Shown here: one piece after another, positions 34,134 through 44,186 of the stretch
Layout: every line of letters begins with the position of its first letter
Position numbering within the stretch: position 1 is the first letter of the stretch
NCBI RefSeq assembly: GCF_029309905.1
Contig: NZ_JARBJP010000001.1
Span: 186,001 to 250,000, forward strand
Reading direction: 5' to 3'
Origin: Brytella acorum
Lineage (GTDB): Bacteria > Pseudomonadota > Alphaproteobacteria > Acetobacterales > Acetobacteraceae
DNA: 64,000 nt
Translations under genes and position numbers: made by a program
The notes under the pieces: generated by a model
Told to the model about the DNA's origin: nothing
Database searches by the model: none
The model's input: only the letters and a program-made list of their open reading frames with translations

Positions 34134-34237
34134 ACGGCATGGGATAATCGCGGCGTTTTCCCGCCTTTATTCTCCCAGATGTCCGGAACCCTGTCCTGTC
34201 TCTCTCGCCACTTCTCGTCGCGCTTGTCGCATTACCA

Positions 34238-35671
34238 TTGGGGCGGATGGCCGTCGCGTATGTCCGCTGGCCCTCCGCAAAGGGCGAGATCGCGACGAGG
34301 GTTCTGGGAGGGGCGCATCTCGCTGTGTGTCTGTGGAGCGTGGGGTGCGGGGCGGACATACACGCTGGTATCCTCGTTCTCGATCCCTTCGTCGCGGCAT
34401 TCGAATGCCTTCTGGCGCTGCGAAGCCTGAATGCGCGACCGGCGGGTCTCCCGGCTCCTATGCTCGGCGCGCTGTCCCTTCTGGTCCAGCCAGGGCCGCT
34501 TCAGGCCCTGCTGGCGGGGCTGGGCCTGGCGATGGGACGGAGCGAGGTTGCCGCAGCCTTCACGGGATGGCGGGGCGCGGTCCGGCTGGTCGCGCTGATC
34601 CTGCTGGGGGTGGTGGCTCCCGGGACGATGCTCGCGCCGATCGTCGGGCTGGTGGCTTTCCTGACATTCGCACCGTGCGAGCCGCTTCTCGGCAGTGCCT
34701 TCCTGCTCCTGTTCACGATATCCGCGCCAGCGTTCTGGGTGCCGTCGCTTATCTGCGGTTTCGGCGTTCTGGCGCTGGCCCCCCGGCAGATCCTGCTTTC
34801 GGCCAGCGAAGCGCCGGTTCTCATGGCGCTTGGAGTGGCGCTGGCGGCGCGTCGGGCCGATCTCGCCGAGACATCTCTGGCGGCGTTTGAGGCGTTCTTC
34901 CTTTTCCTCGGGAACCATGCGGTGCGCGCGGAGGCGTCGGGACGGCCCGTTCTGCTCATGGATTCGGTTCTTCCAGGCGCCGCCGGGTTCCTGCCTTTCT
35001 GGCTCGCATTGCACGCCGTATGCGGCCTCGCGGCGGCCCTGACCAACTGGATCGCGGGAGCACTGGTCGTCGGACTTGCGCTCGGCATCGCCGCGGTTCA
35101 ACGCAGCCGGTCCATCTGGCTGAAGATGTTCGCGCCACATGGATTGGGGCATGACGGCATCCGGCTGTCCCTTCTGGCGGGGATCGCGGCTTTCCCCGGT
35201 GCGTTCTTCATGCTGTTGCGGGCTCCTCTCGAAAGGCTGAGTGGCGCGAGCCCGGCGGGGCTGTCGGCGCATGGAGGCGCGTTTCAGGCTCCGGGCCGGA
35301 TGATGACCGCGTTGTGGATGATTCCGGGTGGCGACGGCGCGCGCTGGTATCCCGGCGTGGCGACCCTGTTTCTTTTCGTCATCTGCGGCCTCCTGACGAG
35401 CGGTCGCGGCATTGCGTCGGCCCGTCCGTCGATGGTGGTCGATTCCGTCATTCTCTCTGTCGGACATCGGGGCGGCGCGTTCAGTTTCGGCCAGCGCCGT
35501 TTCATGGCGAGGGCGCGCCGCTGGGCCGCGCACGGGCGGCAATGGCTGGGCGGCGCCGCCCGATATCCCCTCACCGCCGTCGGCGGTCGTGCCACGTCCT
35601 CCGCCCATCGTCTCGCGCTCTGGCTGCTGCTTGTCGCGCTTGGTCTTGCGGCCATCGGATGGGAAGGCTGA
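34238..35671 (+). CDS. HyfB-like (Mrp antiporter/NuoL-M-derived) membrane subunit, divergent
   Basis: This encodes 477 residues with more than ten hydrophobic segments. The assignment rests on gene order (first of B-C-E-F-G) and on the C-terminal layout (a long loop with basic residues, then a final helix HRLALWLLLVALGLAAIGWE) typical of HyfB. Classical HyfB has about 670 residues with Lys and His motifs in antiporter helices; I cannot find a KxGxxPFHxWLP or HALFK counterpart, so ion pumping is doubtful. The called TTG start is uncertain: the frame stays open and hydrophobic back to TAA 34145 (including LLVALVALPLG) but has no ATG or GTG there. The stop overlaps the next start. Alternative: an unrelated multi-pass protein. 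Confidence 0.6.
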   Translation: MGRMAVAYVRWPSAKGEIATRVLGGAHLAVCLWSVGCGADIHAGILVLDPFVAAFECLLALRSLNARPAGLPAPMLGALSLLVQPGPLQALLAGLGLAMGRSEVAAAFTGWRGAVRLVALILLGVVAPGTMLAPIVGLVAFLTFAPCEPLLGSAFLLLFTISAPAFWVPSLICGFGVLALAPRQILLSASEAPVLMALGVALAARRADLAETSLAAFEAFFLFLGNHAVRAEASGRPVLLMDSVLPGAAGFLPFWLALHAVCGLAAALTNWIAGALVVGLALGIAAVQRSRSIWLKMFAPHGLGHDGIRLSLLAGIAAFPGAFFMLLRAPLERLSGASPAGLSAHGGAFQAPGRMMTALWMIPGGDGARWYPGVATLFLFVICGLLTSGRGIASARPSMVVDSVILSVGHRGGAFSFGQRRFMARARRWAAHGRQWLGGAARYPLTAVGGRATSSAHRLALWLLLVALGLAAIGWEG

Positions 35672-36576
35672 TGGCGCTCGTTGTCGCATGGCTCACCGAA
35701 GTTGTGCAGCTTGCGCTGCTCGCCCTGCTGGCGCCCTTTCTGGTGGATGTGATGTCCATGGCGGCCGCCGTTCTGTCCGGCGCGCGGATGTCCGTCCCCG
35801 GGGAGCGCTGGCGCCAGATCGCGACGGGGTGGAGAGGGCCTTGCGAACCGCAGGGAGCCGGTCCGGCATGGGCGGCCTGCGCGCTGTCGGGCGGCGCACT
35901 GGCCATCACACCCCTGATCAGCGTGGATATGGCCGGAGCTTCCCTGGCGGACCCTCTGGCGATCGGCCTGCTCCTGCTTGGCGCGCGTGCCGTCTGCTGG
36001 CAGAGGGCGTTCGGGGCCGGATGCGTCTGGCGACGCGATCGTGAGGCGCAGCGTCAGGTCGCCATTCAGTGGCGGATGTGCGGATGGATCGTGCCTGTCC
36101 TGGGGCTCGTCAGCGCCTTGATGGCCATCGGCCTGCCCGGAGCAGCCGGTCTGGCGGGGCTGGCGCGCGACCTGCATGTTCAGGCCGCGCCCGCGCTCGT
36201 CGGCGCTCTGGTTTTCGCGGCCCTCGCGCTGGGCGTTCTTCTCGGGCCGCAATTCCTGGATGCCGCCAGTTTCGAAGTCCTGCTTCCGGAGGCGGAAGGC
36301 CGTCTGCGCGCGATGTTCCGATACAGCCAGGATCTGGCATCCTGCGGCTGGCTTCTTCTCATCGGCGATCTCATGCTGCCGGGCCTTCCGGATGGAGCGA
36401 CGCTGTCGATCCCTGGCATGCTGATGGCGTGGGTGGCCGCGCCTGTTCGGCTCGTGCTGGTCGCGGGAGTTTTGGGTGTCGGCATGGTGTTCCTCAGGGG
36501 CGACGTGCGTCGCCCCGCCGTGGCGTTGGCGGGGGCCGCCATCATTCTCGTTCTGTCGGGGCGGTTCGCCTCATGA
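35671..36576 (+). CDS. HyfC/NuoH-like membrane subunit of the hydrogenase-related complex
   Basis: This encodes 301 residues starting at ATG 35671, 1 base inside the previous stop (TGATG). The N-terminus LVQLALLALLAPFL-type (here VVQLALLALLAPFLVDVMSM) matches HyfC/NuoH, as does the helix pattern. The loop that carries conserved acids in NuoH/HyfC is recognisable but altered (FEVLLPEAEGRLRAMFRYSQ): two of the glutamates remain, while the ETGR-P-D-NP part has become GPQFLDAAS. In complex I this subunit lines the quinone chamber. It anchors the soluble G/I module to the membrane by analogy. Confidence 0.75.
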   Translation: MALVVAWLTEVVQLALLALLAPFLVDVMSMAAAVLSGARMSVPGERWRQIATGWRGPCEPQGAGPAWAACALSGGALAITPLISVDMAGASLADPLAIGLLLLGARAVCWQRAFGAGCVWRRDREAQRQVAIQWRMCGWIVPVLGLVSALMAIGLPGAAGLAGLARDLHVQAAPALVGALVFAALALGVLLGPQFLDAASFEVLLPEAEGRLRAMFRYSQDLASCGWLLLIGDLMLPGLPDGATLSIPGMLMAWVAAPVRLVLVAGVLGVGMVFLRGDVRRPAVALAGAAIILVLSGRFAS

Positions 36577-37115
36577 CGGTGCTGTTCGGGTTTCTGCTTC
36601 TCGTGTCCTGTCTGGCCATCGGACGTGACGGTCGTGTGCTCCCTCTGCATGGATTCTGCACGGCCCTGTGCATCGCCTTCTGCGGACAGGGGCCTGTCGC
36701 CGTCGCGGCCCTCGTGGCGGCGCTCGGCGGCAGTCTCTCGGCGTGGATGGGACTGCGTCGTTTTGCGCCGGAACGCATGGACGGGACCGGGGTGCTCTCT
36801 CCCGTCGTCATGGCCGCGGCGGGTGGAATGGTTCTGGTGTTCCTGCTGGCGCTTTCCGCCGTTCCGGGGCTGCCGGTTCTGTTCGCGGCGGCGGTGGTGC
36901 TGGTCGGATTGTGTGGCGCCGTCCTGTCGGTGCCGCTTCTCCAGTTCGCCGCGATGTTCTGCGGTGTGGATGGTCTTTTTCTGCTCGCAGGCTGCGTGCA
37001 GAGCGGATTGCTTCTGGCGGCGGCGGTGATCGTCTGGGGATCCCTGGCCGTCCTCGGGGTGTGGCTTCTGCCGCGTCTGGCATGGCTGCGAACGGAGACA
37101 CCTGACGATGTTTAG
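36573..37115 (+). CDS. HyfE-like small membrane subunit
   Basis: This encodes 180 residues from ATG 36573, overlapping the previous stop (ATGA). There are five or so short hydrophobic helices with few charges (MTVLFGFLLLVSCLAIGRDG at the start, VLLAAAVIVWGSLAVLGVWL-type end). HyfE (about 216 residues) is a NuoK-related protein and is often as featureless; the call relies mainly on size, topology and position between HyfC- and HyfF-like genes. It overlaps the next gene by 8 bases. Confidence 0.65.
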   Translation: MTVLFGFLLLVSCLAIGRDGRVLPLHGFCTALCIAFCGQGPVAVAALVAALGGSLSAWMGLRRFAPERMDGTGVLSPVVMAAAGGMVLVFLLALSAVPGLPVLFAAAVVLVGLCGAVLSVPLLQFAAMFCGVDGLFLLAGCVQSGLLLAAAVIVWGSLAVLGVWLLPRLAWLRTETPDDV

Positions 37116-38265
37116 TGCCGTGCTCCGGGCCGGAACATCTGGCTTCTCCTTGCTGCTCGTCCCCTGCTGGCCGCTTCTGGCGGGCTTCCTCCTGTTGCTC
37201 CTGCCTCGCGATCAGACGAATGTCGCGGGTCGGTTCCTGGCGGCTTCCGGCCTCGTCGTGGCGGCACTTTTCACGCCGTTCATGCCCGAACAGGACGTTC
37301 TGTCGGACGTCGTGCGTCTGCTGGCCGCTTCCATCCCCTTTCTCGCCTGGCGCGACGGTCTCGGTCGCGCGGCGGCCGTCGTGCCGTTTTTCGCGACATC
37401 CTGCGTCATGCTGGCCCTGACCGTGCATCAGGTTCTCGCGGTGGTGGCACTTCTCGGCCTCGCTTCGGCGTTTCTCGCCTTGTATGACGCCGCCGGAGCC
37501 GTGCGGGCGCGCAGCGCCTGGGAGACGGCCCAGCTCCGCGTCGCCGGTGTGATGATGGCCCTGCTCGGCGCGACGTTCACGACGCTGTCCGCGACGGCGG
37601 TGGGAAGCGGGACCCTGCGTACGGGCGATCTCCTGCTCTCGGTGGGGCTGTGTCTCATCGCCGGGCTCGGGCATGTCCCGGCGCCGCCGCCTGCGGGACG
37701 GCCAGCACTCCTGGATATCCTGCCGCGTCTGGGCGCCAGCGCGCTCATGCTGCGACTGCCGGCGCATGACGTGACGGATGCCGTCTTTCTGGCCCTGGGG
37801 CTGGTGACGCTGTGGCTTTGCGCCTTTCGGCAGCGCGCCGGGGGCGCCCTGTTCGCCGCGATGATGGCGCTCTGCGCGGGCGCGTCCGGAGGAGGGGGAT
37901 CTGATCGTGGCATGGCGGCGGAAAGTCCCGTGCTCGTGGCGGGGCTGCTTTTCTGCATCGCCGCCACCGCGCTTGCGACGGAACGCATCGACGATCGTCA
38001 ACGCGCCTGGATGGAAACCGCCCAGCCACCGAGCCCGCTGTTCATGGGCAGTCTGCTGTTGCTGGCGGAACTGCTGCCCGGACATCCCCTGATGGCGGCC
38101 CTGATCCTTGGCGGCCTCGGCCTGCAGGTCGCCCGTGCCGGTCCGGGCGACTGGCCCCGGCGGATGGACAGGGCGGATCTGATGTTCTGGGGGCTGGTTC
38201 TGGTCGGGCTGCTCTCTCCCCTGCTTCTCCTGTGGCCGCTCGCTCTGGCCTGGCATCCTTCATGA
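37108..38265 (+). CDS. HyfF-like antiporter-derived membrane subunit, shortened
   Basis: This encodes 385 residues with about eleven helices. The region AWETAQLRVAGVMMALLGAT resembles the HyfF/NuoN segment before the central helices. E. coli HyfF has about 526 residues. Where active members carry a lysine followed by PFHxWLPDAH, this protein reads IAGLGHVPAPPPAGRPALLD, keeping only an echo of the His/Pro pattern. A His-Ala-Lys motif near the C-terminus is not seen. Proton translocation is therefore doubtful, though the gene is intact and in register with its neighbours (8-base overlap before, 4-base after). Confidence 0.65.
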   Translation: MFSAVLRAGTSGFSLLLVPCWPLLAGFLLLLLPRDQTNVAGRFLAASGLVVAALFTPFMPEQDVLSDVVRLLAASIPFLAWRDGLGRAAAVVPFFATSCVMLALTVHQVLAVVALLGLASAFLALYDAAGAVRARSAWETAQLRVAGVMMALLGATFTTLSATAVGSGTLRTGDLLLSVGLCLIAGLGHVPAPPPAGRPALLDILPRLGASALMLRLPAHDVTDAVFLALGLVTLWLCAFRQRAGGALFAAMMALCAGASGGGGSDRGMAAESPVLVAGLLFCIAATALATERIDDRQRAWMETAQPPSPLFMGSLLLLAELLPGHPLMAALILGGLGLQVARAGPGDWPRRMDRADLMFWGLVLVGLLSPLLLLWPLALAWHPS

Positions 38266-39671
38266 GCGCGGACCGTTCCGAGGTGCTCGTGATGAGGGAG
38301 GCCATCCTTGCCGGCGAGCGGATCGCGCCCCGCCATTTCGCTCTCGACGAGGCGCAGTGGGAGCGCATGGTTCACGCCCGGGCGCCGCTGTGGTTTCTGG
38401 CGCACTGGTGCGACGCGGGTCGGGCCTATGCCCTGTTTCTCGATGGCGACCAGCCGGTCATGGCCAGTACGCCGATGGTCGAGGGGCGATATCTGGCTCT
38501 GTCGAAAACAGTACCAGCCGCGGCGTGGTCCGAGCGTATGGCGCAGGATCTCTGGGATGCGCGGCCCATGTTCGCGCGGGACGTACGATCCTTGCTGGAC
38601 ATGGGGGGATGGGTGCACTCGGCGCCGCTTTCATCGCGTCGCGCGCCCGGGAGCCCCCCGAGAGCCTGTTGCCCGGAAGACGAACCCTTCGGCGACGCGA
38701 CGGGACCGGTCGTCCTGACGGATCGCGACATGACGTTCGGGCTGTCGCATCGCGGGCTGGTCCAGCGCATGCTGGGATTGTCGCCCGGCGAGGGGTTGCG
38801 GCATGTCGGGCGGATTTCCTCCGGCGGGTTCGTGGCTCACGCTCTGGCCTATTGCCGGGCCGTGGAAGCCGCCATTGGCGGCTCCGTGCCGCCGGAGGGG
38901 CGTGATGGCCGGATCGTCCTGTCCGAGATCGAACGCATTTCCGTCCATCTGGACGATCTCGCCAGGGTCGCGACACTGGCCGATGCGGGATTGCTGGCGA
39001 CCCATGCGACGCTCGCCCGGGAGACGATCGCCGATCTCTGCGTCCGTCACGGGGCTACCCGCAGACTGACGGACGTCATCGCACCGGAAGGTATCGCGCC
39101 GGGTATCGAGGTTCGCGAACTGGCCGACGCCGTGATGGAACTCGTCCGGACGCGACTGCCGGACTGGCACCTTCTGCATGAAGGTGCCGCGTTCCGTTTG
39201 CGTCACGTGGGCGTCCTGGAGGCTACGAGAGTCACGTCCCTGGCCATCGGCGGGCTCCCGGCGCGCGCGACCGGTCGTTCGTTCGATCTGCGCCAGCGCG
39301 AGGACGATCCACGTTACGGCGCGGGTCGCGCCGGGTCGCTCACGGAAGGCGATGCGCTGGCGCGCGGGCGTTTGCGGTTGCGCGAAATACGGGATTCGGT
39401 CCGGCGTCTCGAACGCGTAACGTCGGATTTCGGTGTCTCGTGGGAGGATGGCCGTCAGCGGGTGAATGTCGGCGAGGGCATTGGCGCGGTGGAAGGGGCC
39501 AGGGGAGACGTGTGGTGCTGGGTGCGTCTGGTGGATGACAGGATCGACGGTTTCCATCTGCGGGACGGCGCGTTCAGCCTGGCTCCGGCCCTGGGGCGGC
39601 TCGTCGGCGGGGCGGACGCGGAACTCGTCCTGGCGTCCTTTGGTTTTTCGGCGGCCTCGGCGGCGGGTTGA
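38262..39671 (+). CDS. HyfG-like large subunit (NuoC-NuoD fusion) without NiFe ligands
   Basis: This encodes 469 residues from ATG 38262 (ATGA overlap). Residues 1-120 are the NuoC-like part (RAYALFLDGDQPVMAST, GRYLALSKTVPAAAWSERM). Residues 140-469 are the NuoD/NiFe-like part (LSHRGLVQRMLGLSPGEGLR, ALAYCRAVEAAIGGSVPPEG, LSEIERISVHLDDLARVATL). Active enzymes have CGICG where this has SSGGF at about 186-190, and DPCxxCTxR near the C-terminus where it has ASFGFSAAS (last 13 residues). All four NiFe cysteines are missing, so hydrogenase chemistry is excluded. It is soluble and would pair with the HyfI-like protein. Related Cys-less large subunits are known in group 4 / Ehr-type complexes. Confidence 0.85.
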   Translation: MSADRSEVLVMREAILAGERIAPRHFALDEAQWERMVHARAPLWFLAHWCDAGRAYALFLDGDQPVMASTPMVEGRYLALSKTVPAAAWSERMAQDLWDARPMFARDVRSLLDMGGWVHSAPLSSRRAPGSPPRACCPEDEPFGDATGPVVLTDRDMTFGLSHRGLVQRMLGLSPGEGLRHVGRISSGGFVAHALAYCRAVEAAIGGSVPPEGRDGRIVLSEIERISVHLDDLARVATLADAGLLATHATLARETIADLCVRHGATRRLTDVIAPEGIAPGIEVRELADAVMELVRTRLPDWHLLHEGAAFRLRHVGVLEATRVTSLAIGGLPARATGRSFDLRQREDDPRYGAGRAGSLTEGDALARGRLRLREIRDSVRRLERVTSDFGVSWEDGRQRVNVGEGIGAVEGARGDVWCWVRLVDDRIDGFHLRDGAFSLAPALGRLVGGADAELVLASFGFSAASAAG

Positions 39672-39768
39672 TGGCCGTCGGGACCCTGATCTGACGACGG
39701 TTCCATCTTTCAGAATTCCGATCTGATATCGTAATGTGCCAGTCGCATAATATCCTGCTCGCGGAAGG

Positions 39769-40455
39769 CTATGAACGCGCCGGGTGCTCATGCCGGTAGA
39801 GGGCGTAGGACAGCAGCGTTTTCGCGTCCGTCATTCCGATTTTGGGGATGTCGTCGAGCGCCATGACCCGCACTTCAATAAATTCATGCTCGGCCTTGTT
39901 GCCGGTCCGGCGTCCTTCGAGGGAGCGGATGAGTTCCGGCGAAGCTTCCATTTCAGCGGCGAAAAGAGAAATGGCCTCGTCACAGCCGCCTGGCGACGTC
40001 CAGGTCGTCGCGAGGTGGATGAGTTGTTCTTCGCGCACGTGCAGGTCGGTCCCGATTTCCTCGCCGAGCTCCCGCAGTGCGGTGCTGTCGAAACTGCCAT
40101 CGTCCACCATCCCCGCTGGCAGGGAGAGCAGGTCGGCCTTGCCGATGGGCAGACGGGCTTCGCATGTCAGCACCGTCCGGTCCGGTAAGCCCGGACACTT
40201 CAGCACGACGAGGATCGAGGCCGAATCTCCGCGCAGGAAGGCATATTCCGGAAGAACCTGTCCGTCATGCAAAGCCTCCGCCTCCACGAAAATGAAGCCC
40301 ACACGGCGTCCGAACATGCCGACGTCGCGCACATGAACCGAGCGGAGCTGGAAGGCTGTCCGGGTGCGTTCCAGCCAGCGTCTGAAATGGCTGGCGTTGC
40401 GGACGGCGTCATGCTGATCCTTCGGAATGGTCGAGGCGAAAATGATATTCATCAT
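39769..40455 (-). CDS. NUDIX hydrolase, ADP-ribose-pyrophosphatase-like
   Basis: This encodes 228 residues from ATG 40455 (a second ATG follows directly), with AAAGCCAGG upstream. The NUDIX helix is LPAGMVDDGSFDSTALRELG and EEIG. The REL-EE-G part with the metal-binding glutamates is intact, but the upstream Gly-x5-Glu part is altered (no Glu after DDG) and one residue shorter. The preceding strand order and LPAG fit ADP-ribose pyrophosphatases. The N-terminal 90 residues (FVEAEALHDGQVLPEYAFLR) are family-typical. It lies antisense between the large- and small-subunit genes of the Hyf-like complex. The substrate is inferred, not shown. Confidence 0.8.
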   Translation of the reverse strand: MMNIIFASTIPKDQHDAVRNASHFRRWLERTRTAFQLRSVHVRDVGMFGRRVGFIFVEAEALHDGQVLPEYAFLRGDSASILVVLKCPGLPDRTVLTCEARLPIGKADLLSLPAGMVDDGSFDSTALRELGEEIGTDLHVREEQLIHLATTWTSPGGCDEAISLFAAEMEASPELIRSLEGRRTGNKAEHEFIEVRVMALDDIPKIGMTDAKTLLSYALYRHEHPARS

Positions 40456-40459
40456 GCCT

Positions 40460-40495
40460 GGCTTTCTTTGGTGGCTTTCTTCCGGTTGTCCGGTT
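40460..40495. repeat. Paired direct repeats in the NUDIX/HyfI-like promoter region
   Basis: GGCTTTCTT appears at 40460 and 40473 (period 13), followed directly by CCGGTT at 40482 and 40490 (period 8). They sit just upstream of the NUDIX start and in the 173-base divergent region shared with the HyfI-like gene. They may be operator half-sites; this is weakly supported. Confidence 0.35.
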
Positions 40496-40628
40496 CTCGA
40501 CGGAAACGTACAACGAAGCCGGTGTCGCGGGGCGCTGCGTGAGGTTCCGTTCTGGCATACTGTCTTGGAATCGTCATCGACGCTTGCGAGGCATGATTTA
40601 TAACGTCGCGCATGGAGGTGCATCTCGG

Positions 40629-41114
40629 GTGTCATGGTTGCGGGCATGGTTTGATGCGAGAGCCTGGCGGCGGCCCCAGAACTGGCCGCGCGCGCCGCGT
40701 CCGCTGTCGCTCTACGCCGTGCAGGCCGGAGGATGCGATGGGTGCGCGGCGGAGGTCGCGGCCCTGCGTGAGGGGGGGGCTTATGATCTCGCGCCTCTCG
40801 GCCTGCGTTTCGTGGCCACGCCCCACGATGCGGAACTGCTTGTCGTGACAGGCAGCATCACGCGGGCTTCGGTGCCCTGGCTCATGCGCTGGTGGGATGA
40901 GATGCCGATGCCCAAGGGCCTGGTGGCGATCGGGGATTGCGCCGTAAGTGGTGGGATCGCGGGCGAAAACTATGCGACGTTGTCCGGTGTCATGGCGGCG
41001 CGTCTCCCGGGCGTTGCGCAATGCGACATGACCTTGCGCGGTTGTCCGCCGCCGCCCGATGAGATCCTGCGCGGTCTCCTGATGCTGGCCGCGGGCAAGG
41101 TCGTCAGCGCGTGA
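40629..41114 (+). CDS. HyfI/NuoB-like small subunit with intact [4Fe-4S] ligands
   Basis: This encodes 161 residues if started at GTG 40629 (GGAGG 10 bases upstream); an in-frame ATG at 40593 would add 12 residues. All four cysteines for the proximal (N2-type) cluster are present: Cys36 and Cys39 in AGGCDGCAAE, Cys104 in IGDCAVSGG, and Cys139 in RGCPPPPDEIL. The flavodoxin-like core LLVVTGSITR is also conserved. It is the natural partner of the HyfG-like protein but is separated from it by the antisense NUDIX gene. Its stop overlaps the next gene (GTGA). Confidence 0.88.
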   Translation: MSWLRAWFDARAWRRPQNWPRAPRPLSLYAVQAGGCDGCAAEVAALREGGAYDLAPLGLRFVATPHDAELLVVTGSITRASVPWLMRWWDEMPMPKGLVAIGDCAVSGGIAGENYATLSGVMAARLPGVAQCDMTLRGCPPPPDEILRGLLMLAAGKVVSA

Positions 41115-41992
41115 ATGCGGTCCGCTCGGAACTCGTGGCGGTGCTGATCGCGGTCGATGACGGCGTGCCGATGGTGCTGACGCTGGAGGGCGGACGCGCG
41201 CTGCCCTCCGGACCGCTGGAAACCGCGCATCGCTCTCTTCAGACCGGCATGCGCCTGTGGGTCGAGCGTCAGACCGGGCACCGGCTGGGGCATGTGGAAC
41301 AGCTTTACACATTTGCCGACACGCCGGACCGCCATGAATCGCGGACCATCCGCATCTCCTACATGGCTCTGACGCGCATCGGCATTGCGCCCGAGGGCTG
41401 GAAAAGCTGGTACGCCTATTTTCCGTGGGAAGATCGCAGCACGATCGAAGGACGCATGGCTCTTGCGGGCGCGCGCGCCCGTCTCGACGCCTGGGCGAAA
41501 TCCGCTCGCGACCTTGAAAAGATCAAGGCGCGCATTGACCAGACATTCGGCACGGAGGGCGGCGCATGGGATGATGAGCGGGTCCTGCAACGCTACGAAT
41601 TGTTATGGGAGGCGGGGCTGGTCGCGGAATCGCGCGCAGCCACGGGAAGCGTTGTCGCGGGTGAAGCGATGGTGCGGGACCACCGGCGCATTCTGGCGAC
41701 GGCGATGACGCGCCTGCGCGCGAAAATCCGCTATCGGCCGGTGATTTTCGAACTCATGCCCGAAGCGTTTACGTTTCTCGAATTGCAGCGCACCGTGGAA
41801 GCCGTGGCCGGTCAGGAAATGCACAAGCAGAATTTTCGGCGACTGATACAGCAGCAGCAACTCGTGGAAGAAACCACGGAACTGTCGCGCGAAGGACCCG
41901 GCCGTCCCGCGCGCCTGTTCCGGTTCCGCCGTGAAATCATTGGCGACCGCCAGGCCGCCGGTTCGAAACTGCCACTGATGCGATCTGTCTAG
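41111..41992 (+). CDS. NrtR/NAD-regulator-like protein (NUDIX-like domain plus winged helix)
   Basis: This encodes 293 residues with a GTG start overlapping the HyfI-like stop by 4 bases. Residues 1-150 resemble a NUDIX fold but the NUDIX box is gone (PLETAHRSLQTGMRLWVERQ has none of the catalytic Glu pattern), as in NrtR regulators, where the domain senses ADP-ribose or related NAD metabolites. The C-terminal part (about 205-285: FTFLELQRTVEAVAGQEMHK, NFRRLIQQQQLVEETTELSR, GRPARLFRFRREII) matches the NrtR winged helix. The likely role is a transcription factor for NAD metabolism or for the adjacent complex. Targets are unknown. Confidence 0.72.
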   Translation: MNAVRSELVAVLIAVDDGVPMVLTLEGGRALPSGPLETAHRSLQTGMRLWVERQTGHRLGHVEQLYTFADTPDRHESRTIRISYMALTRIGIAPEGWKSWYAYFPWEDRSTIEGRMALAGARARLDAWAKSARDLEKIKARIDQTFGTEGGAWDDERVLQRYELLWEAGLVAESRAATGSVVAGEAMVRDHRRILATAMTRLRAKIRYRPVIFELMPEAFTFLELQRTVEAVAGQEMHKQNFRRLIQQQQLVEETTELSREGPGRPARLFRFRREIIGDRQAAGSKLPLMRSV

Positions 41993-42062: not shown

Positions 42063-44186
42063 TCAGCGCCGCGTCTCGCCGGGCACTTTCAGGATCGCGC
42101 AGAGGCCCGGCGTTTCATGGACGAACTCGAGCGAACCTTTGAGGCTTTGAACGATCGCGCGCATCATGCGGGTGCCAAACCCCTCATGGGTTTTCATGGA
42201 GAGTACGCCGCGGTCCGAAACCTTGAGGGTCAACACATCCGCGTCGGTCGCGAGCGCGATCCCGATCGGGCCTGCCTTCCCGTCATAGGCGTATTTGGTG
42301 ACGTTGATGACAAGCTCGGTCGTCACAAGTCCGATATGGATCGCGCGATCGGCGGACATCAGGGTGGGCTCGAGGATCAGCGTCAACTCGTTGCGCCATT
42401 GCGGCCCGATGGCGCCGCACAGTTCTTCGCACAGTTCGCGGATATAGTGCGACAGTTCGATCTGGCCATCGTTGCCGTCCTGATGGAGCCGACGGTGGAC
42501 GAGCCCGATCGCGGAAATGCGGCGTTGCGCCTCGGCCAGGGAGTCCGCCGTGTCGGCCGAGTTCGCGCTTTTGGCTTGCAGGGTAAGAAACGAAGCCACG
42601 AGCTGGAGACTGTTCTGGACGCGATGATTGACCTCGTGAATGAGAAAATCCTTCTGTTTCAGAAGCCGTTCTCTTTCTTCAAGGGCGATTTCCAGACGCT
42701 GGTTTAATTCCCGCTGCTGGATGGCGTGTCCATGTTCACGAAAATACTGGCGCAGAAGAACGGCCCCCTGGATCTCATCGCTCGTCCAGGGCGAGGCATG
42801 GTCGCGCACGGTATGCCTGCGGACGGCGATTCCGTCTCTGGATCGATCGACGTCATCCGCTTCGGGAGTAATGTCCTCCGAGGGAAGCGTCACCCATTTC
42901 AGATGACGCAGACGCTCGCCGCGCATCCATATGATGACGGTTTCGGGGTGGGGCAAGGTAATCGCGAGAACGCCGCTGGCCACCTGAGCGTAGTTTTGCG
43001 CGGGTGGATAGAGTGACGGCAGCATGGACGTCACGAACATGCCGGCGGAAGCCTCTTTCCGAACGCGTTCGGAAAGTTTGCGCAGCTGCGTCTGATCGGG
43101 ACATTGTCCGAACGTATGGACACGATCGTTTTCAATGACGGCAAGACCGTTCGAGCGAAACAGGGTGCGCAGTTCGCTGGCGATGGCCCCGCCGACATCA
43201 GCGCCGGGAAGATCGGAATTGAACCGGGTTTCAATTTTCTCGATGGCGCGGCGGATGCGAAGACGCTCGCGATAGGTCGCGGTTTCTTCCTTGATCCGGA
43301 TCTGGCGCGACATCACGCCTGTCAGCACCTGACAGGCCATGCGGGTATCGAGATCCATCAGTCGTGGCGTCGCATGATGGCATAAAACAAGGCCCCACAA
43401 TCGCCCATCGACCACGATGGAAATGGTCGCGCAACCACGAACGCCCATCGCGCCGAGATGCTTTGCCCAACCCGGTGTGGTGGCCCGGATTCCGATCTGG
43501 TCGAGATCGACCGTCGCCATCTCCTTCCCTGGGGGACGAAGGAACGCGGGGGCCGCCGCGACGTCGCCGATCGTACGTACAGGGTTGCGGATGCAGAGCA
43601 AACGGCCTTGTGCCGTGATGGTACTGGCGGGAAGATGAAGGCCGATGAGAGGCGGCAGTTTTGCGTTGCGGACTTCCCCGATGATCTCGCTGGAGCCATC
43701 GGATTCGAAGTGGCAGACCTCCACGCGGTCGTAGCCGGTCAGTCGGCGAAACCGGTCGGCGGCCATGATGGCGAGCGTATGGATGTCGGATGCGCTCTCC
43801 AGCGCCGTGGCGTGGTCGTCGATCTCGCGCAGAACCTGACGTGCGGGCCGTTCTTCCGGGGGAAAAGGTTCCAGTTCGACGAGGAGCCACGCGCCGGACC
43901 GGACGGCGCGCGCGGCGAGACGTTCTCCGCCGGACGTTTTTATGATGTGGTCGTTGATGGCGGCCGGGGCATCGGTCGATGTCGCCAAGTCCGGCAGCGA
44001 CAGAAGAGCCGCGAGCGGCTGGCCGAGCCATTGGACTGACAGCGTGGCCTCGATCTCTCCCGCTCCGCCGCGCACGATCAGATCCTCGTCGGCCACAAGC
44101 AGCAATCCGTGCGCCTGGATGGCCTGTAGGAGAGGCTGCATGTCTGAGACGCGGTTTTCGGACGATCTTTTATGAGGCGTGCTCAC
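42063..44186 (-). CDS. Bacteriophytochrome-like histidine kinase lacking chromophore-site residues
   Basis: This encodes 707 residues (GTG 44186; ATG 44141 is an alternative). It has a PAS-GAF-PHY-HisKA_2/HATPase layout: PAS (about 15-110, IQAHGLLLVADED matching the IQPHG strand), GAF (about 130-295), PHY (about 315-490), H-box HEVNHRVQNSLQ with His521, N-box TTELVINVTKYAY and G-box GFGTRMMRAI. The N-terminal chromophore Cys is absent, PASDIP is PASTIT (186-191), the P-H-YL motif is TPGWAKHL (237-244), and the tongue PRxSF is SRDGI. CHH (269-271) remains. It is probably a soluble kinase that does not sense light. No response regulator is adjacent. Confidence 0.85.
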   Translation of the reverse strand: MSTPHKRSSENRVSDMQPLLQAIQAHGLLLVADEDLIVRGGAGEIEATLSVQWLGQPLAALLSLPDLATSTDAPAAINDHIIKTSGGERLAARAVRSGAWLLVELEPFPPEERPARQVLREIDDHATALESASDIHTLAIMAADRFRRLTGYDRVEVCHFESDGSSEIIGEVRNAKLPPLIGLHLPASTITAQGRLLCIRNPVRTIGDVAAAPAFLRPPGKEMATVDLDQIGIRATTPGWAKHLGAMGVRGCATISIVVDGRLWGLVLCHHATPRLMDLDTRMACQVLTGVMSRQIRIKEETATYRERLRIRRAIEKIETRFNSDLPGADVGGAIASELRTLFRSNGLAVIENDRVHTFGQCPDQTQLRKLSERVRKEASAGMFVTSMLPSLYPPAQNYAQVASGVLAITLPHPETVIIWMRGERLRHLKWVTLPSEDITPEADDVDRSRDGIAVRRHTVRDHASPWTSDEIQGAVLLRQYFREHGHAIQQRELNQRLEIALEERERLLKQKDFLIHEVNHRVQNSLQLVASFLTLQAKSANSADTADSLAEAQRRISAIGLVHRRLHQDGNDGQIELSHYIRELCEELCGAIGPQWRNELTLILEPTLMSADRAIHIGLVTTELVINVTKYAYDGKAGPIGIALATDADVLTLKVSDRGVLSMKTHEGFGTRMMRAIVQSLKGSLEFVHETPGLCAILKVPGETRR

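Follow-up and report, generated by a model that had tools for sequence, protein, structure and literature searches.

A cysteine-less, hydrogenase-4-like complex of acetic acid bacteria that very probably lost charge translocation as well

The stretch of DNA analysed here comprises 64,000 nt of the Brytella acorum genome (contig NZ_JARBJP010000001.1, positions 186,001 to 250,000; referred to as the window). Between positions 34,238 and 41,114 it carries six genes related to hydrogenase-4 of Escherichia coli, named B, C, E, F, G and I after the respective Hyf subunits. We tentatively regard B-C-E-F-G-I as a derived lineage within the cysteine-less Ehr complexes, passed on vertically, which would have lost proton pumping too and which most likely acts as a membrane redox relay or sensor. 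Put in terms of the complex I superfamily, and with the same reserve, this branch may have dropped both NiFe/quinone catalysis and ion translocation, and a single [4Fe-4S] cluster may have become the core of a complex with a new job that is not energy-converting. Ehr complexes without the cysteines are already known. New is the pump-less derived branch, i.e. the loss of the pump and not that of the NiFe ligands.

In the large subunit G of the window, residues 186-189 (SSGG) align with CGIC of E. coli HyfG and GFSAAS from residue 461 aligns with DPCYSC. None of the four NiFe cysteines is present (0/4), and the same holds for 17/17 genomes of the acetic-acid-bacterial set, which consists of the window and L033-L048 (L numbers denote loci, G numbers genomes). 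The protein contains six cysteines in total, none of them within a CxxC. Its best solved relative in a profile search is E. coli HycE (1.4e-47). A preliminary description of this DNA had listed both replaced motifs and concluded that the subunit can neither bind NiFe nor evolve H2. The alignment bears this out: as there is no NiFe centre, hydrogen chemistry of the known kind can, judging from the ligands, be dismissed. The same description took the ligand loss to set this version apart, which does not hold. G is free of CxxC in 40/40 fetched relatives from the family, and the NiFe ligands are absent in 20/20 relatives from 17 other alphaproteobacterial families (L177-L196, 20 of the 23 non-family genomes with strong matches), where the four positions read S, S/T, S/T and G. 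A lone cysteine at the second NiFe position occurs in 1/10 'intermediate' Acetobacteraceae loci. Going by these alignments, the NiFe loss is old and not special to the acetic-acid-bacterial version.

Other sites of G are retained, namely (HyfG numbering) R485 in 16/17 rows and E461, R416, R420, H219 and E279 in 17/17 each. H190, D194, E195 and H198 of the beta1-beta2 loop are all missing (0/17 each), and the position of the complex I tyrosine is Ser in G of the window. For these reasons the alignment does not indicate a complex-I-like quinone site. The canopy residue D515 is also gone (0/17); it is already Asn in all 34 rows that keep the pump. Four loci with broken or cut frames (L103, L106, L112 and L121) were left out of the rows for the G sites and for the newly fixed residues described below, and L143, L144, L146 and L147 were also left out of one further row set.

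In the membrane arm, most of the proton path is missing. Counts are given as canonical / intermediate / acetic-acid-bacterial rows in E. coli Hyf numbering. In B, E142 and K221 (14/14, 0/9, 0/17 each), K252 (14/14, 0/9, 0/17; Arg in 4), H344 (13/14, 0/9, 0/17; Asp in 8) and E407 (13/14, 0/9, 0/17) are absent throughout the set, while H348 (14/14, 0/9, 1/17) and K352 (13/14, 0/9, 1/17) are found in a single row each, the one with H348 being the window, where the alignment is unsure. D78 of HyfB is retained in 11/17 acetic-acid-bacterial rows. F shows the same pattern at E143 (15/15, 1/8, 0/17), K232 and H347 (15/15, 0/8, 0/17 each) and at H343, K351 and E406 (14/15, 0/8, 0/17 each). In C the losses concern E146 (10/10, 2/9, 0/17), D203 (10/10, 4/9, 1/17), E210 (10/10, 1/9, 0/17) and E282 (10/10, 0/9, 1/17), in E they concern E159 and K68 (11/11, 0/5, 0/17 each). 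In formate hydrogenlyase of E. coli, mutation of HycD E138 or of E199/E201/E203 lowered H2 production by 98-99%, according to the accessible part of PMC9474812.

Of the relatives from other families, 18/20 have every one of the 12 tested B and F sites intact; the exceptions are L186 with Gln at F H343 and L189, whose B frame is short, with Asn at B K252. L189 (G317) stems from a very small genome of 0.9 Mb, which keeps the cysteine-less complex together with its pump residues. The antiporter-type subunits are shortened in the acetic-acid-bacterial set: the median length of B is 459 aa vs 675.5 aa in canonical rows, and F has 379 aa in the median row vs 483-526 aa in canonical rows without over-long open frames. 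Hydropathy peaks number 10 vs 15 for B and 10 vs 13 for F, with 13 and 8 in the window's own B and F. Moreover some positions are newly fixed (at least 54/60 rows; the 60 rows represent 50 genomes, ten of them twice): B H259 in 58/60 (Gln in 14/14 canonical rows), B D366 in 56/60, C R298 in 58/60 and E P167 in 60/60. New ionisable residues of the arm are B H259, B D366 and C D233. As an aside, the HyfB-like match in L065 (784-2920) extends over two overlapping frames, perhaps due to a frameshift. Because most of the proton path is gone, energy coupling appears unlikely, and the second Ehr property, charge translocation, has on the evidence of these sites very probably been lost in this branch.

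B, C, E and F give no Pfam match above cut-off and no NCBIfam match; the single sub-threshold Pfam match of E is SLATT_1 (E 0.17), and the B profile retrieved nothing useful from the PDB sequences. Compared directly with canonical profiles, which include the E. coli Hyf subunits, the acetic-acid-bacterial profiles of C (probability 97.7%) and F (77.1%) match, which is not the case for B (13.2%) or E (2.8%). Since the direct comparison is weak for B and E, a chain via intermediate profiles was needed (L051, L055, L058, L061, L066, L067, L068, L070 and L071; 5 to 9 rows per subunit). The steps from acetic-acid-bacterial to intermediate and from intermediate to canonical gave 7.1E-08 and 1.8E-59 for B, 7.1E-23 and 4.6E-47 for C, 3.2E-09 and 4.2E-11 for E, and 7E-14 and 5.6E-26 for F. 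Off-diagonal matches are weak except for intermediate B and F vs the opposite canonical antiporter (97.1% and 78.1%), as is expected for paralogues. The assignment of these four subunits to Hyf counterparts is thereby a prediction from the profile chain built here. Acetic-acid-bacterial and intermediate loci also share neighbouring gene families (e.g. 12 + 5 or 9 + 7 loci) that are not found at canonical loci, bar one exception in one locus; by eye, the conserved neighbours are leucyl aminopeptidase, HolC, an aldo/keto reductase, PssA and Psd.

G-like matches at E<=1e-10 are present in 124/150 sampled genomes of the family, 14 show weaker matches that are probably NuoD, and 12 show none. Holders of the operon include Acidomonas, Asaia, Swaminathania, Gluconobacter, Neokomagataea, Saccharibacter, Tanticharoenia, Bombella and Parasaccharibacter. 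A pattern-based search found no Acetobacter or Komagataeibacter among 66 loci. The nearest named relatives are Acidomonas, Asaia, Swaminathania and Gluconobacter, in line with the earlier assignment to acetic acid bacteria. Four loci from metagenome-assembled genomes titled Asaia bogorensis (L152, L154, L156 and L157) seem to be mislabelled, their G being 31-34% identical to that of the window vs 46-50% for true Asaia. In the G tree, with NuoCD from residue 191 taken as NuoD for the outgroup, the 17 acetic-acid-bacterial and seven intermediate rows form one clade (100/99). The pump-dead loci L051, L058 and L066 fall outside this clade of 24 in the free tree, and a single clade of all 27 pump-dead rows is not rejected (p-AU 0.666). 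We do not claim a single origin of the pump loss, as the free tree splits off three rows and the 27-row clade is compatible as well. Searched over 289 genomes, the B profile matches the window's genome only and misses G040 and G121 of the same family; it is no proof that pump loss is absent elsewhere, since the missed G040 (L067) has a pump-dead B.

The small subunit I of the window carries the cluster cysteines C48, C51, C116 and C151 (numbered from 40593). All four [4Fe-4S] cysteines are complete in 96/97 rows, a set that includes genome repeats and E. coli HyfI. I was detected in 13/13 genomes searched; in six of them it is located a long way from G. Neither the window nor the surroundings of the operons (126 loci tested) contained a HyfH/HyfA/NuoI-like frame at E<=1e-4, with the exception of L062, where one such frame lies >4 kb beyond the operon. 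With regard to known classes, the complex has the proximal [4Fe-4S] ligands of group 4 [NiFe] hydrogenases and lacks their NiFe CxxC pairs and HyfH. From complex I it lacks the His/Tyr of the quinone site as well as the NADH module and NuoI in the operon. Ehr complexes have no Ni/Fe ligands and are suspected to couple a redox reaction to charge translocation through Mrp-like subunits, as far as the accessible part of PMC6349859 states. The absence of Ni/Fe ligands is found here too; homologues of the Mrp antiporter subunits are present but have lost the path residues. The relation to Ehr-type complexes suggested in the preliminary description agrees with this definition, with the profile chain and with the cysteine-less group-4-like relatives.

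Because the cluster ligands of I and the core of G are conserved, one can argue for a redox function, or for a state that depends on redox conditions. The six proteins would still assemble as one membrane complex, with the single [4Fe-4S] cluster of I as its only redox centre. As a HyfH/NuoI-like subunit is missing, this cluster might trade electrons without an intermediary, either with a soluble partner or with a small molecule located in the former active-site cavity of G. The remodelled membrane arm would merely anchor the complex or link it to quinone and not couple energy. We thus infer that the complex most likely acts at the membrane as a redox relay or a redox sensor. The new membrane redox or quinone-linked complex proposed earlier accordingly keeps a possible redox role through I, but the quinone link finds no complex-I-like site in G.

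Several observations weigh against this reading. The strongest single one is the intermediate L066 (G099), whose pump is dead and in whose I only one of the four cluster cysteines is left, so that the cluster is not required everywhere; possibly derangement has gone one stage further in L066. Of the intermediates, just 3/10 keep the canopy Arg of G. In C, D104 is retained in 13/17 rows (Glu in 3), E213 in 7/17 and E138 in 5/17. Finally, E. coli HycC itself has no lysine in transmembrane helix 7 according to the accessible part of PMC9474812, hence single residue losses are no proof of lost pumping. It is conceivable that the complex remains an oxidoreductase with energy coupling and translocates ions along a path invisible from known residues: the gene content of the membrane arm is whole, C mostly keeps D104 together with Arg or Lys at position 270 (16/17), and the new ionisable residues could be part of such a route. 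We nevertheless consider this quite improbable, given that the known path residues of B, E and F are gone and that B and F are shortened.

The ratio of non-synonymous to synonymous substitutions (dN/dS) has medians of 0.07-0.30 in every subunit tested. The groups compared were Gluconobacter with 17 rows, Bombella with 7, Asaia/Swaminathania with 6 (I not included) and three further ones with 4, 2 and 2 rows; the ratio is based on the longest open frames, where false N-terminal extensions may raise dN, and some small groups provide only 1 or 2 usable pairs. The genes are thus under purifying selection in related genera, as had been proposed. The operon is also kept in genomes of ~2 Mb. These data speak against a decaying, functionless relic on its way out, like the other 'deranged' respiratory complexes of the Acetobacteraceae. 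Such a relic would fit the wholesale loss of functional residues, the separation of I from B-G in several genomes, the rapid sequence change in B (mean column identity 27%), the missing cluster cysteines of L066 and a family known for a deranged bc1 complex (accessible part of PMC10715153). Besides the low dN/dS, the cluster cysteines that I retains and the newly fixed residues of the membrane arm count against it, and we consider a relic unlikely.

Complex I NuoF is absent in 8/17 genomes that bear the operon; in the window's own genome it is located on another contig (C3). This bears on the idea that the proteins serve as a structural or assembly partner stabilising another respiratory complex, as has been proposed for deranged bc1 and complex I (accessible part of PMC10715153). 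Stabilisation of complex I is excluded in the eight genomes because they have no NuoF. Another partner is possible there, but overall we give this explanation little credence.

Positions, strands and assignments of the genes and motifs are compiled in Table 1. B, C, E, F and G are open, co-directional, overlapping frames (34238-39671), with a 1-base overlap at B/C, ATGA at C/E and F/G and 8 bases at E/F. I begins 921 bases past the end of G. Because a Nudix gene on the minus strand intervenes and I overlaps the gene that follows it (GTGA), I is outside the B-G unit. Of the six-gene unit with ATGA-type overlaps described before, the part B-C-E-F-G therefore stands, with two of four junctions of that type, and I has to be taken out. 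Likewise the operon is intact with regard to its reading frames but not to its machinery, the proton-path residues being lost. Some starts are uncertain. For I, GTG at 40629 is possible; the true start of the Nudix gene, judged by eye, is probably ~40455. For B the earliest standard starts in frame, TTG 34238 and ATG 34247, both lie inside a hydrophobic stretch, past its first part. Upstream, at 34140-34250, the open hydrophobic stretch in the B frame is preceded by no ATG, pointing to an unusual start codon or a frameshift.

Table 1. Genes and motifs of the hydrogenase-4-like locus in the window
Feature	Position	Strand	Basis
B: HyfB-like subunit of antiporter type, shortened to 477 aa, loss of proton-path residues, start uncertain	34238..35671	+	profile chain to HyfB via intermediates
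C: membrane anchor resembling HyfC/NuoH, without most of the path acids	35671..36576	+	profile vs intermediates 7.1E-23, vs canonical HyfC 2.1E-12
E: HyfE-like membrane subunit lacking E159 and K68	36573..37115	+	profile chain
F: HyfF-like subunit of antiporter type, shortened to 385 aa, loss of proton-path residues	37108..38265	+	profile chain
G: large subunit resembling HyfG, 469 aa, NiFe ligands absent	38262..39671	+	Complex1_49kDa 4e-10; HyfG and NuoCD alignment
SSGG replacing CGIC, in G	38817..38828	+	alignment to E. coli HyfG
GFSAAS replacing DPCYSC, in G	39642..39659	+	alignment to E. coli HyfG
Nudix hydrolase gene between G and I; neighbour, candidate part at most	39769..40647	-	NUDIX 4.7e-08; adjoins I in 5/13 genomes
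I: HyfI/NuoB-like small subunit, four [4Fe-4S] cysteines	40593..41114	+	Oxidored_q6 2.7e-21
NadQ/NrtR-like regulator; putative link to complex	41111..41992	+	NrtR_WHD 4.1e-22, no NUDIX match; adjoins I in 7/13 genomes

The gene downstream of I matches only NrtR_WHD and AraR_C and may be a NadQ. NadQ (COG4111) has an NrtR-like C-terminal helix-turn-helix and an N-terminus without the ADP-ribose-binding domain, and it controls nad genes. The NadQ/NrtR-like gene follows I in 7/13 genomes (in the window at 40593-41992; L073-L078 and L085), in five of them with I far from B-G, and a Nudix gene lies by I in 5/13, each within ~1.5 kb. In the window's genome a perfect NadQ box is located just before a nadA-like frame (L198 1501-1517, G000:C4:237715-237731). 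I could hence act together with the adjacent regulator and the Nudix hydrolase as a NAD-linked sensor in NAD homeostasis. However, six of the 13 genomes have no such neighbour within ~1.5 kb, and no NadQ box is found near the operon. The window contains six matches with two mismatches vs 5.78 expected, i.e. the chance level, and no conserved palindrome was found upstream of I; control of the operon by NadQ/NrtR was rejected on these grounds. We regard the sensor explanation as very improbable, and the adjacency may reflect inherited synteny only. Further downstream on the minus strand (42063-44186), a frame resembles, by eye, a bacteriophytochrome-type sensor histidine kinase.

For the cysteine-less group-4-like complexes in general, a lineage without the pump but with the cluster and the G core separates the two halves of the question of function. 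As the pump was dropped while cluster and G core were kept, the function of this branch need not be ion pumping. The question may be directly testable in the Gluconobacter oxydans knockout collection, which has been published for oxydans B58 (accessible part of PMC8602642). Searches of the open-licence literature listed no paper that, judging by title and visible abstract, deals with this operon.

Compared with known systems, the Ehr-type operons of other Alphaproteobacteria (L177-L196) are similar in that 20/20 loci have the six subunits, I included, all have lost the NiFe cysteines and none has a HyfH-like frame nearby. In contrast to the acetic-acid-bacterial branch with its shorter B and F, they keep the 12 path residues of these subunits (18/20). 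Hydrogenase-4 and formate hydrogenlyase of E. coli (Hyf, Hyc) share homologous subunits, the gene order and the cluster ligands of I, and HycE is the closest solved match of G; the window operon differs by lacking the NiFe ligands, the beta1-beta2 loop acids, genes for HyfA, HyfD and HyfH and the pump residues. Complex I (NuoB, D, H, L/M/N) belongs to the same superfamily, as seen from the matches of G to Complex1_49kDa and of I to Oxidored_q6. Unlike complex I, I has CxxC instead of a tandem CC, Ser replaces the NuoD Tyr, no NuoI-like frame is nearby, and the operon is retained in eight genomes without NuoF. To our knowledge, the hyc-like operon Rv0082-Rv0087 of Mycobacterium tuberculosis is group-4-like with no known hydrogenase activity. 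Deranged bc1 and COX1-like proteins have been described in Acetobacteraceae in PMC10715153, whose main text contains neither 'hyf' nor 'NiFe' and names hydrogenase once, as type 1. There as here, a respiratory complex is retained in the family despite the loss of metal ligands; the bc1 complex lost the Rieske cluster ligands, whereas the cluster ligands of I are kept. Among the respiratory complexes that the Acetobacteraceae retain in deranged form, the complex presented here represents a third kind, in this case with the cluster ligands preserved.

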